Origin: Phycisphaerae bacterium
GTDB lineage: Bacteria; Planctomycetota; Phycisphaerae; Sedimentisphaerales; Anaerohalosphaeraceae
NCBI GenBank assembly: GCA_012729675.1
Contig: JAAYCR010000034.1
Span: 1-64,000, forward strand
Direction: 5' to 3'
Length of the DNA: 64,000 nt
A program made the translations under genes and the position numbers. Below the pieces are notes generated by a model that worked only from the letters and a program-made list of their open reading frames with translations, did not search any database and had not been told where the DNA came from. Each line of letters starts with the position of its first letter. Position 1 is the stretch's first letter. This document shows, one piece after another, positions 25,996 to 28,846 of this stretch.

Positions 25996-27129
25996 TTACG
26001 TCCTCCAGCGTTCGTAGGCGGCATTGACGCAAAACTCAACGAACCGTTCCATCTCGACCTGATCGGTCTGCTTGATCAATTCATTGATATAGGTGTCATA
26101 TTGTTTGCGGCGGTGTTCGAATTGAAGCTGCTGTTCGATCAGCGGCTGAACCTCCTCAAACGGCTGGCATCCGCCCAATTCTTTGCGATCCAGTTTTAGA
26201 ATGAAGATATGTCCGTCGCCGATGATGGGCTCGGAGATACCGCCTTCATCCATCGCCAAGGCCGCGTTTTCCAGCACGTCATATGGTTCCATCAGGGCGT
26301 TGGCGCCGACTGTCACCGGCAGCCATTTGCCGCCGGCACGCGCCAGTGGGCCGTGAGAATGCTGCCGCGCCAGTTCCGCAAAGTCCTCTCCCATGCGCGC
26401 CCGCATCGCCAGGGCCATCGCCAGTTCCATGGCCGCTTCCTGAGCGGATTGGCCGGGGCCAATCTGCGCGGCGGTCAACTGCTGCGGCACGAGATCAATC
26501 GCGTGAAATTCCAGCGTTCCACTCCGGCAAAATTGTTTATCTCGCACCATCTCGTAGTACTCGGTCATCTGGCGGTGTGTAAAGCGTGCCGTTTCATTCA
26601 GTTTGCTGGACAGGTACGAATGCGTCATAATCAGCTTTTTCTGGTACTGGCGAAACGTCCGCCAGTCCATGCCCATCCGGCGAATCTCGGCCTCGGCCAG
26701 CGCGTAGTTGTTGCCGAACCCGGCAACGAATCGATTGATTTCCTGATCGACTGCTTTGTCCAAGGCATCCTCGATGTTGGCAGGTGCATTATTTCGGGCT
26801 TCGGCATACAGCAAAATGTCCGACACCTTGCTGCGCACCGTCTCGCGTACCAGTGGTACGGCTCCGGCGGTAAACATCTGTCGATCCATCTGTGCCGCGG
26901 CCGGGCGGAGCCGGTCTTCCAGTGTGATGAGGATTTCGTCATTCGTGATCGTCTCGGAGGCCAGACTCATCGCCATGCCGCCGGTGGCTGGCGGCAGCTC
27001 ATCCCGGTTGGCCAGCGGAATCGTCTGCATCTGCTCTTCGGTAAATTTCCCCTTTGGCTTGCCGCCGCATCCTGCGGCCCACAGGACTGCTAAACAGCCA
27101 GTCAGAACCCATACTGTGCGAAAATTCAT
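25996..27129 (-). CDS. PpiC/SurA-type peptidyl-prolyl isomerase lipoprotein
   Basis: A 377-residue exported chaperone. The signal peptide ends in a lipobox-like LWAAGC (Cys19-20 region). An N-terminal SurA/SurN-like helical domain spans about residues 60-210, followed by a PpiC parvulin domain (about 215-330: SGTLEFHAIDLV...GEDFAELARQHSHGPLARAGGKW...GGISEPI) and a C-terminal helix. It probably assists folding of outer-membrane proteins in the periplasm. ATG 27129 follows AGAGGG. It heads the minus-strand operon and is divergent from mgtE. Confidence 0.85.
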   Translation of the reverse strand: MNFRTVWVLTGCLAVLWAAGCGGKPKGKFTEEQMQTIPLANRDELPPATGGMAMSLASETITNDEILITLEDRLRPAAAQMDRQMFTAGAVPLVRETVRSKVSDILLYAEARNNAPANIEDALDKAVDQEINRFVAGFGNNYALAEAEIRRMGMDWRTFRQYQKKLIMTHSYLSSKLNETARFTHRQMTEYYEMVRDKQFCRSGTLEFHAIDLVPQQLTAAQIGPGQSAQEAAMELAMALAMRARMGEDFAELARQHSHGPLARAGGKWLPVTVGANALMEPYDVLENAALAMDEGGISEPIIGDGHIFILKLDRKELGGCQPFEEVQPLIEQQLQFEHRRKQYDTYINELIKQTDQVEMERFVEFCVNAAYERWRT

Positions 27130-27235
27130 ACCATTGACCCTCTGTAAAAAAGTCTTTTTTTCCAAACACAGGATGGAATTATATGTGTTTTCTGAAAAAA
27201 AGCAAAAGATCCCCCTCAAAAACAAAAGATTTATT

Positions 27236-27264
27236 TTGCCGTCACAACGCTGGCATGGTACACT
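27236..27264 (+). promoter_or_regulatory. Promoter of the mgtE leader
   Basis: -35 TTGCCG (27236-27241), 17-base spacer, -10 TACACT (27259-27264). Transcription would start near 27271, almost at the ATG of the upstream ORF, so that ORF may be read from a nearly leaderless RNA. Confidence 0.5.
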
Positions 27265-27271
27265 TTTTGTT

Positions 27272-27403
27272 ATGGAAAAACTGCATAAAACAAGATACAG
27301 ACCGGTTTTGGAGTCGGCCGGGGACAAGGCATCGGCATTGTCCGAGACCGGCGACGACCCTGGGTCGCAACGGCGACCAAGGCGTCAAGGCAAACCGCTG
27401 TAG
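27272..27403 (+). CDS. Upstream ORF in the mgtE leader (putative leader peptide)
   Basis: A 43-codon ORF starting MEKLHKTRYRPV, with ETGDDPGS and then RRPRRQGKPL at its end. It has no clear RBS, but the predicted transcription start lies next to its ATG. Its TAG stop (27401-27403) falls five bases after the first arm of the leader hairpin, so a terminating ribosome would cover that arm. The acidic-proline-then-arginine-rich make-up recalls the MgtL leader peptide of enterobacterial mgtA, where such sequences stall or destabilise ribosomes at low Mg2+. The two are not homologous, and translation is inferred from layout only. Confidence 0.4.
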   Translation: MEKLHKTRYRPVLESAGDKASALSETGDDPGSQRRPRRQGKPL

Positions 27404-27466
27404 CCTCTTTATTGCATCGGGTTTGCCTTGAAAACGACAGAACAACGTTTCGTGAGGCAAACCATG
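27386..27466 (+). promoter_or_regulatory. Two-state RNA switch sequestering the mgtE ribosome-binding site
   Basis: Arm 1 CAAGGCAAACC (27386-27396) pairs perfectly with arm 2 GGTTTGCCTTG (27420-27430). The nine bases AGGCAAACC of arm 1 are repeated at 27455-27463, covering the Shine-Dalgarno and ending at the mgtE ATG, so arm 2 can pair there instead, extended by AAACG/CGTTT in the loop. The two hairpins exclude each other: 1-2 leaves the RBS free, 2-3 hides it. The loop of 1-2 also contains GCCTC, complementary to the RBS segment GAGGC. The upstream ORF ends inside this element. Confidence 0.6.
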
Positions 27467-28846
27467 AAAAACCCATTGCTCATCCCCGAACTGCGGGAAT
27501 TGATGGCCGTCAACGATACGGCCGCAATCCGCGAATTTTGTCAGCAATCCCATCCGGAATCGGTTGCCGAATTGATTGAGGCGCTGGATACCGAAGAAAT
27601 TTGGCGGATTCTGCAAATGCTCGATCTGCCGCAGCGTGCGTCGATTTTCTCCCATTTTGATCTTGACCAGCAGGTTGAACTGGCCACCGGCCACAATCGT
27701 GTGCAAATGGCGCATCTGCTGGAAGAAATGCCCGCTGACGACCGGGCCGACTTGGTGCAGAACCTCGACAAAAAGGTGCGCGACGAACTGCTGCCGCTGG
27801 TGGCCCGCGCCGAACGCGAGGACATCAAGCGACTGGCCCGGTACGAAGAAGAGACCGCCGGGGCGGCGATGAGTACCGACTATGCGGTTCTGCGGCCGGA
27901 TGTCACGATTGAAGAGGCCATTCATCAGCTTCGCGCACAGGCGCCCGATAAAGAGACGATCTATTATATCTATGTAGTGGACGAATACCGCAAGCTCATC
28001 GGGTTTGTCTCGCTCAAAGACATCATCGTCGCCCGCCCCGGAAGACTTATCCGCGACTTGATGCATACCGACGTGATCAAGGCCAACGTCCATGACGACC
28101 AGGAAAGCGTTGCCAATCAAGTTGAAAAGTATGACTTGATCGCAATCCCCGTTGTCGATGACGATAATGTAATCGTGGGTATTGTTACGCACGACGACGC
28201 CATCGACATTATTCGTCAGGAACAGACCGAAGATATCGAAAAACTGATGGCGATATCCGGTGAGCACGAAAGCACGCCGTATCTGAAGATTTCCGCCTGG
28301 CGGCATTTTCGCAATCGGGCGACCTGGATATTTATTTTGGGGCTGGTTAGTCTCATCGGCGGACTGATCATCCAGCTTCATGAAGAGATGTTAGTGCAAA
28401 TTGCCGTACTGGCAACCCTGATTCCGATGCTGGCGGCCACCGGCGGCAACACCGGCAGTCAGTCGGCTGCACTGGTGATTCGGGCGTTGGCGGTAAAAGA
28501 AATTTTCGGTCGAGATATCCTTCGCGTCTTGTTTAAGGAATTCTGTGTCGCGCTGCCGCTGGCGTTTGTGATGTCCATATTGGCTTTTGGGCGATTGTTT
28601 TTGTTCGCAAGTGGCGAAACAATGCCGCCGGGGGTGTCGTTATGGATGCTGGCATTTGCGGCCGGGGTGGCGTTGGCGTTGCAGGTGCTGTCCTCTACGC
28701 TCATTGGCGCGCTGCTGCCGTTGGGGGCGGTTGCCTTAAAGCTCGACCCGGCGGTTGTCGCCAGTCCGTCGCTTGCAACAATTGTCGATATCACGGGCTT
28801 ATTGATATACTTTACCGTTGTCAGCGTCATGGTAATGCCGGCTTAG
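27464..28846 (+). CDS. mgtE: MgtE-family magnesium transporter
   Basis: A 460-residue Mg2+ channel/transporter of the inner membrane. The N-terminal MgtE_N superhelical domain (about residues 20-120, ending LLPLVARAEREDIKRLARYEEETAGAAMS) is followed by two CBS domains (about 125-250) that sense cytosolic Mg2+, and five membrane helices from about residue 275. The pore signature is PMLAATGGNTGSQSAAL. ATG 27464 has GTGAGG upstream; a TTG at 27428 would read through the regulatory hairpin and is rejected. Expression is probably controlled by the leader at 27272-27466. Confidence 0.95.
   Translation: MKNPLLIPELRELMAVNDTAAIREFCQQSHPESVAELIEALDTEEIWRILQMLDLPQRASIFSHFDLDQQVELATGHNRVQMAHLLEEMPADDRADLVQNLDKKVRDELLPLVARAEREDIKRLARYEEETAGAAMSTDYAVLRPDVTIEEAIHQLRAQAPDKETIYYIYVVDEYRKLIGFVSLKDIIVARPGRLIRDLMHTDVIKANVHDDQESVANQVEKYDLIAIPVVDDDNVIVGIVTHDDAIDIIRQEQTEDIEKLMAISGEHESTPYLKISAWRHFRNRATWIFILGLVSLIGGLIIQLHEEMLVQIAVLATLIPMLAATGGNTGSQSAALVIRALAVKEIFGRDILRVLFKEFCVALPLAFVMSILAFGRLFLFASGETMPPGVSLWMLAFAAGVALALQVLSSTLIGALLPLGAVALKLDPAVVASPSLATIVDITGLLIYFTVVSVMVMPA

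Follow-up and report, generated by a model that had tools for sequence, protein, structure and literature searches.

The mgtE Locus and Its Upstream Reading Frame

The 64,000-nucleotide stretch of DNA analyzed here (the window) belongs to a 2.8-Mb draft assembly; the closest relatives that carry a name are uncultured Phycisphaerae (Planctomycetota). It encodes a canonical MgtE protein (27464-28846) with an MgtE_N domain, two CBS stretches, and an MgtE domain (Pfam). An upstream open reading frame (uORF) runs from an ATG at 27272 to a TAG at 27401-27403 and encodes a 43-residue peptide, MEKLHKTRYRPVLESAGDKASALSETGDDPGSQRRPRRQGKPL, for which no Pfam match was found; the features of the leader are collected in Table 1. 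A divergent gene (25996-27130, minus strand) has a product resembling a PrsA/SurA-type lipoprotein, and in two related loci (L002 and L003) the strand opposite mgtE likewise encodes the N-terminus of such a product upstream of that gene. Elsewhere in the window, an int-alpA RNA (RF02996; 2172-2237, minus strand) scores above the Rfam gathering score; this RNA type is usually associated with integrase/AlpA regions, and the match may reflect a mobile element at the left end of the window.

Table 1. Coordinates in the window of mgtE and the elements of its leader
Feature	Position	Strand	Support
Promoter-like element TTGCCG-17 nt-TACACT	27236..27264	+	4/4 species of the genus
uORF / leader peptide, 43 aa, ...TGDDPGSQRRPRRQGKPL*	27272..27403	+	comparable uORF in 30 close orthologs
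Acidic-Pro motif DDPG (family form [DE][DE]PGP)	27353..27364	+	motif enrichment in close leaders
Arm 1 (putative anti-sequestor), copy of the SD arm, in the last uORF codons	27386..27396	+	exact pairing with arm 2
Arm 2 (putative anti-SD), common to 1:2 and 2:3	27420..27430	+	pairing, covariation
Arm 3, SD GAGG plus flank ending directly ahead of the mgtE start codon	27454..27463	+	covariation with arm 2
mgtE, Mg2+ channel/transporter, regulated gene	27464..28846	+	Pfam above curated cut-offs

A generic promoter scan of the window leader returned no textbook promoter. A hand-picked element of the form TTGCSG-17 nt-TANANT lies exactly 7 nt upstream of the uORF ATG in all four species of the window's genus, and no Shine-Dalgarno (SD) sequence precedes the ATG at 27272. 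The fixed distance in four of four species suggests a leaderless start; transcription is expected to begin at or next to the ATG, and the uORF is probably leaderless throughout this genus, as far as sequence alone can indicate. In many relatives a good SD sequence stands ahead of the uORF, e.g., AGAAGGAGGAAAGGT-ATG (L129) and CTGAGGAGCAGA-ATG (L021).

Alternative Pairings in the Window Leader

A repeat search identifies two duplexes, each 100% complementary, that compete for arm 2: 1:2 (27385-27396 with 27420-27431, 12 nt) and 2:3 (27420-27428 with 27455-27463, 9 nt). Arm 3 overlaps the GAGG of the mgtE SD sequence (27454-27457) and ends at the base preceding the ATG at 27464. Duplexes matching these arose in 2 of 200 dinucleotide shuffles for 2:3 and in 1 of 200 for 1:2; the leader as a whole has a folding z-score of -2.7, and none of 200 shuffles was as stable. 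Locally the 1:2 and 2:3 folds are less than 1 kcal/mol apart (-28.0 and -27.1 kcal/mol); over the whole leader the values are -72.0 and -73.6 kcal/mol, and the sequestered state is already favored without a ribosome. When a ribosome is simulated by masking the uORF stop, 2:3 folds best and the SD sequence is sequestered; a mask at DDPG gives 1:2 instead, with the SD sequence free. The first-pass annotation of this DNA had described both a 43-codon uORF and three arms, the second able to pair with either of the others; the reading frame is confirmed, with its stop beginning 5 nt beyond the end of arm 1, and sequence and repeat search reproduce the arm positions and pairings exactly.

We propose, with a probability of roughly 70%, that this configuration switches mgtE translation through a leader peptide, turning the gene on at low Mg2+. 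A short transcript leader would encode the 43-residue peptide. When Mg2+ is sufficient, ribosomes would pass the acidic-Pro motif and reach the end of the uORF; by covering arm 1, those on the uORF tail would leave arm 2 to pair with the mgtE SD region (2:3), and mgtE would be off. When Mg2+ is low, ribosomes would be destabilized or stalled at the motif, upstream of arm 1, which would then be free to pair with arm 2 (1:2), releasing the SD sequence so that MgtE is made. Such an output would be physiologically sensible, with the channel on when Mg2+ is scarce. As a prediction from sequence, the three-arm device is well supported by comparison across orthologs. Mg2+ as the signal and the polarity of the response are inferred, there being no expression data for these organisms; the signal is assigned by analogy, from the downstream gene and the resemblance to MgtL and MgtQ, and drop-off rather than stalling at the motif is likewise an inference.

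The Acidic-Proline Motif

A comparable uORF precedes mgtE in 30 of 49 close orthologs, in hosts from at least five phyla (Planctomycetota, Kiritimatiellae, Zixibacteria, WOR-3, and Spirochaetota); its stop lies mostly 50-75 nt upstream of mgtE, and some close orthologs have no uORF at all. A first, simple scan for such frames also counts chance ORFs, so the criteria adopted were the peptide motif, the position, and the SD hairpin. Searches with the leader at the DNA level gave mostly chance-level matches in relatives beyond the genus.

Within the genus the end of the uORF aligns over 16 codons with no indels, the peptides ending in DDPGPRRSDVHQGKPL, EDPGPRSDAIQQGKPL, and EDPASRRAGIRQGKPH in three other species and in DDPGSQRRPRRQGKPL in the window. 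Outside the genus the acidic-Pro motif alone survives, in the forms DDPGP, EDPGP, DEPGP, DEPHP, DEPDP, EDPES, and DDPHE, found in other Planctomycetota, Kiritimatiellae, Zixibacteria, WOR-3, and one spirochaete. Two peptide features had been singled out initially; the acidic-Pro stretch is indeed conserved, but the Arg/Pro-rich end is not. The strict form [DE][DE]PGP occurs in 11 of the 49 close-ortholog leaders, against 0.03 expected from shuffles, and is absent from the reverse strand and from all 41 distant MgtE leaders. It begins at residues 10-28 in relatives (DDPG occupies residues 28-31 of the window peptide) and lies 16-24 codons from the uORF stop. The motif is not universal: the window itself reads DDPGS instead of DDPGP, only 10 of the 30 uORFs carry the strict form, and even a relaxed form is missing from 14, mainly spirochaetal, in which acidic residues cluster at the N-terminus (M-N-D-S-D-G type) or acidic-Pro stretches of another form occur. 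In the motif codons the first two positions are invariant and every third position varies, which indicates selection on the peptide. The motif is similar to the NPGP with which viral 2A skipping peptides end, presumably through convergence on slow Pro-Gly-Pro chemistry. Before the genome's second, distant MgtE the acidic-Pro motif was not found, and a leader of the same type there was rejected.

Asp-Pro and Pro-Gly-Pro are slow contexts for peptide-bond formation, and attenuators of similar layout sense tRNA charging. It is accordingly conceivable that the same uORF and arms report another signal, such as Pro or Asp tRNA charging, EF-P activity, or general translation stress, with mgtE merely following. 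The codons of the motif vary freely, however (CCT/CCC/CCA/CCG and GAC/GAT/GAA/GAG), so no single tRNA is selected; moreover, the downstream gene is always mgtE (although the ortholog set was collected by an MgtE search), and a response to Mg2+ is already established for leader peptides of the acidic-Pro kind that precede Mg2+ transporter genes (PMC11282234, PMC8092293). We regard a signal other than Mg2+ as unlikely, if the least implausible of the alternatives.

Pairing of the SD Sequence across Leaders

In 25 of the 30 uORF-containing leaders, the interval from the uORF stop to the SD sequence contains a complement to the SD arm (p <= 0.05, mean z -2.8), compared with 2 of 23 close orthologs without a uORF and 1 of 41 distant MgtE leaders; the co-occurrence of uORF and SD-sequestering arm gives a Fisher p of 4e-8. 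Across 24 leaders, 9 of the 11 pairs of the 2:3 duplex show changes on both sides and 88.6% of cells pair; none of 500 shuffles reached the covariation score, of which slid registers retain less than half. These figures are not probabilities: the arms were selected by best duplex, which biases them toward pairing, and relatedness among the sequences inflates the shuffle statistics. A lack of covariation among the arms had been set in advance as grounds for refuting the switch; this condition did not arise, since the arms covary, 2:3 strongly, with 1:2 significant in only 19 of the 30 uORF leaders. In 29 of 30, the best duplexes of the uORF tail and of the SD arm both use arm 2.

The competition itself is visible when the uORF tail is masked, which raises SD:arm 2 pairing in 19 of 30 leaders and lowers it in 1; with the mask moved further upstream the balance reverses, with decreases in 15 and increases in 2. 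The effect of natural tails is 0.24, against 0.03 for shuffled tails (p = 3e-4). The first-pass annotation had reasoned that a ribosome terminating at the uORF would favor sequestration and that one held up earlier would free the SD sequence. This agrees with the predicted folds of the window leader and with the geometry of the genus, where arm 2 starts 17-18 nt past the uORF stop, outside the ribosome footprint, but it does not extend to all orthologs: as a general rule, sequestration by a ribosome exactly at the stop fails (p = 0.87) and was kept for the window's genus only. Elsewhere arm 2 mostly begins 3-12 nt past the stop and is itself covered by the stop mask, which is why SD sequestration does not rise generally; timing or queued ribosomes must then matter outside the genus, or the polarity could differ there.

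This geometry leaves some room for the opposite polarity, in which ribosomes on or close to the uORF stop would cover arm 2, freeing the SD sequence, and uORF translation would promote that of mgtE. The stop mask does lower SD:arm 2 pairing in several orthologs, and removing the start codon of Salmonella mgtQ lowers mgtB translation (PMC8092293). In the window and its genus, on the other hand, arm 2 lies beyond the footprint and a ribosome at the stop yields the sequestered fold, and the above-chance competition of the uORF tail with the SD hairpin would be pointless if stop-bound ribosomes opened that hairpin. We consider a reversed switch improbable.

Slightly less probable still is control at the level of transcription, whereby uORF translation would expose a Rho site and stop mgtE transcription, the SD hairpin being secondary. 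The MgtL and CorL leaders do act through Rho (PMC11282234, PMC11552253). The covarying partner of arm 2, however, is precisely the SD sequence and its flank up to the start codon, which a transcriptional device would not need, and a scan of the window leader found no intrinsic terminator-like site. Rho-dependent control and an SD hairpin can coexist.

M-box (ykoK leader) riboswitches often control mgtE-type genes in response to Mg2+, sensing the ion without a peptide; the type of regulated gene is alike, but the aptamer is absent from the window leader. No M-box or other family was detected there by an Rfam search at gathering or at E <= 5, in line with the initial impression that M-box features were lacking, and with no match in eight related loci either the M-box is excluded. 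Direct sensing of Mg2+ by the RNA, with an incidental uORF, could draw on the stable, structured leader and on the M-boxes before other mgtE genes, but is highly improbable given that the upstream half is conserved as peptide rather than as RNA, that no Rfam family matches, and that uORF and SD hairpin co-occur.

Relation to Known Mg2+-Responsive Leader Peptides

Sensing of Mg2+ through a peptide and the ribosome has been described for enterobacterial mgtA, mgtB, and corA (PMC11282234, PMC8092293, PMC11552253). MgtL is a leader peptide with EPDP at which ribosome drop-off at low Mg2+ turns mgtA on (PMC11282234); mgtQ involves ribosome-destabilizing acidic residues, L31, and alternative stem-loops that hide the mgtB ribosome-binding site (PMC8092293); and translation of the CorL uORF is inversely tied to corA through Rho-dependent termination (PMC11552253).

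The mgtE leaders share with the mgtQ region of Salmonella mgtCBRU a short acidic ORF and alternative stem-loops that hide or release the SD sequence of a transporter gene at the translational level. They differ in that mgtQ encodes 8 residues, the second and fifth of them acidic, is enterobacterial and intergenic, precedes a P-type ATPase gene (mgtB), and uses four arms (1:2 plus 3:4 versus 2:3) (PMC8092293), whereas the mgtE leaders encode about 24-46 residues with the motif mid-peptide, lie in the 5' leader, have three arms, and occur in several other phyla. With MgtL they share alternating acidic and Pro residues, relatives even reading DEPDP (L021) or EEPDPP (L132); MgtL, however, is short, has its EPDP at the N-terminus, and acts through Rho-dependent termination of mgtA (PMC11282234), in contrast to the SD hairpin and usual [DE][DE]PGP of the mgtE leaders. 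CorL is also a uORF before a Mg2+ transporter gene, but it is Rho dependent and has few acidic or Pro residues, and no shared sequence was noted (PMC11552253). The Thioalkalivibrio mgtE motif SRC-65-1 is likewise a conserved leader, in which a stem has the mgtE SD sequence and AUG at its base; it is a riboswitch candidate limited to Thioalkalivibrio and not classed as a uORF (PMC11109978). Judged by description, without a comparison of alignments, the two are separate.

The features of a leader of the MgtL/MgtQ kind that sequence can show are present: a conserved uORF before a true Mg2+ transporter gene, an acidic/Pro stretch in roughly the first 30 residues of the peptide (ribosome destabilization there, and any Mg2+- and L31-dependent drop-off, being inferred by analogy), and, as in mgtQ, a transporter SD hairpin competing with a structure that overlaps the uORF. 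Membership in the mgtQ family proper is ruled out (43 residues in the 5' leader of mgtE versus 8 between mgtC and mgtB), as is membership in the MgtL family, with its different peptide and gene. The device works like mgtQ and MgtL but belongs to neither by sequence, gene, or layout. No earlier mgtE uORF of this type was found in the open literature (openly licensed papers; subscription papers and preprints were outside the scope).

Conservation is unusually broad for an MgtL/MgtQ-like device. It is an evenly balanced question whether [DE][DE]PGP marks a new and widespread class of nascent-peptide Mg2+ sensor, unrelated in sequence to MgtL and MgtQ, that uses the ribosome as a Mg2+ gauge beyond the enterobacteria and is coupled to leaderless initiation in the window's genus. 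If it does, ribosome-based Mg2+ sensing is a general principle or has arisen repeatedly, given the different transporter family and several deep-branching phyla involved; a compact motif would be available whose action on the ribosome is directly testable in a purified system; and short ORFs that annotation pipelines miss would gain a function. The leaderless start, if real, may add a second Mg2+-dependent step via 70S stability.

Additional and Variant Leaders

In a Spirochaetota-dominated group the strict motif is absent and acidic residues directly follow the start codon (MNDSDG, MSDSDG, VNDSEGG). Seven spirochaetal loci (L113, L114, L116, L123, L126, L127, and L129) have mgtE leader peptides beginning MNDSDG, MSDSDG, MDDG, or similar, several with a strong SD sequence. 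Judged from the peptides, these may perhaps constitute a second subtype with N-terminal acidic residues like those of MgtL and MgtQ. In another locus (L080) the uORF, which contains LDDPGPQ, lacks a stop codon ahead of mgtE and enters the mgtE start in another frame, which reflects either overlapping translation or a frameshift in the assembly.

A class-wide search made after the criteria were fixed added 11 orthologous loci. Six have a uORF, four of them with a clear motif: GDDPGP in two, SDDDPNP in one, and EEPDPP in one (at the end of a contig, recognized by eye). Five of the six have a significant SD-sequestering arm; 1:2 pairing, as defined here, is significant in none. On inspection by eye, the uORF tail at some of the loci instead appears to complement the SD-hairpin loop (GCGGAACG/CGTTCCGC in L134 and GCGGAATG/CATTCCGC in L131). 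Leaders in other Phycisphaerae (L131, L132, L134, L135, and L137) are longer, with the uORF stop about 85-95 nt from mgtE, and in them the uORF tail may pair with the SD-hairpin loop; comparison of L131 with L134 points to a possible compensatory change in this tail/loop pairing.
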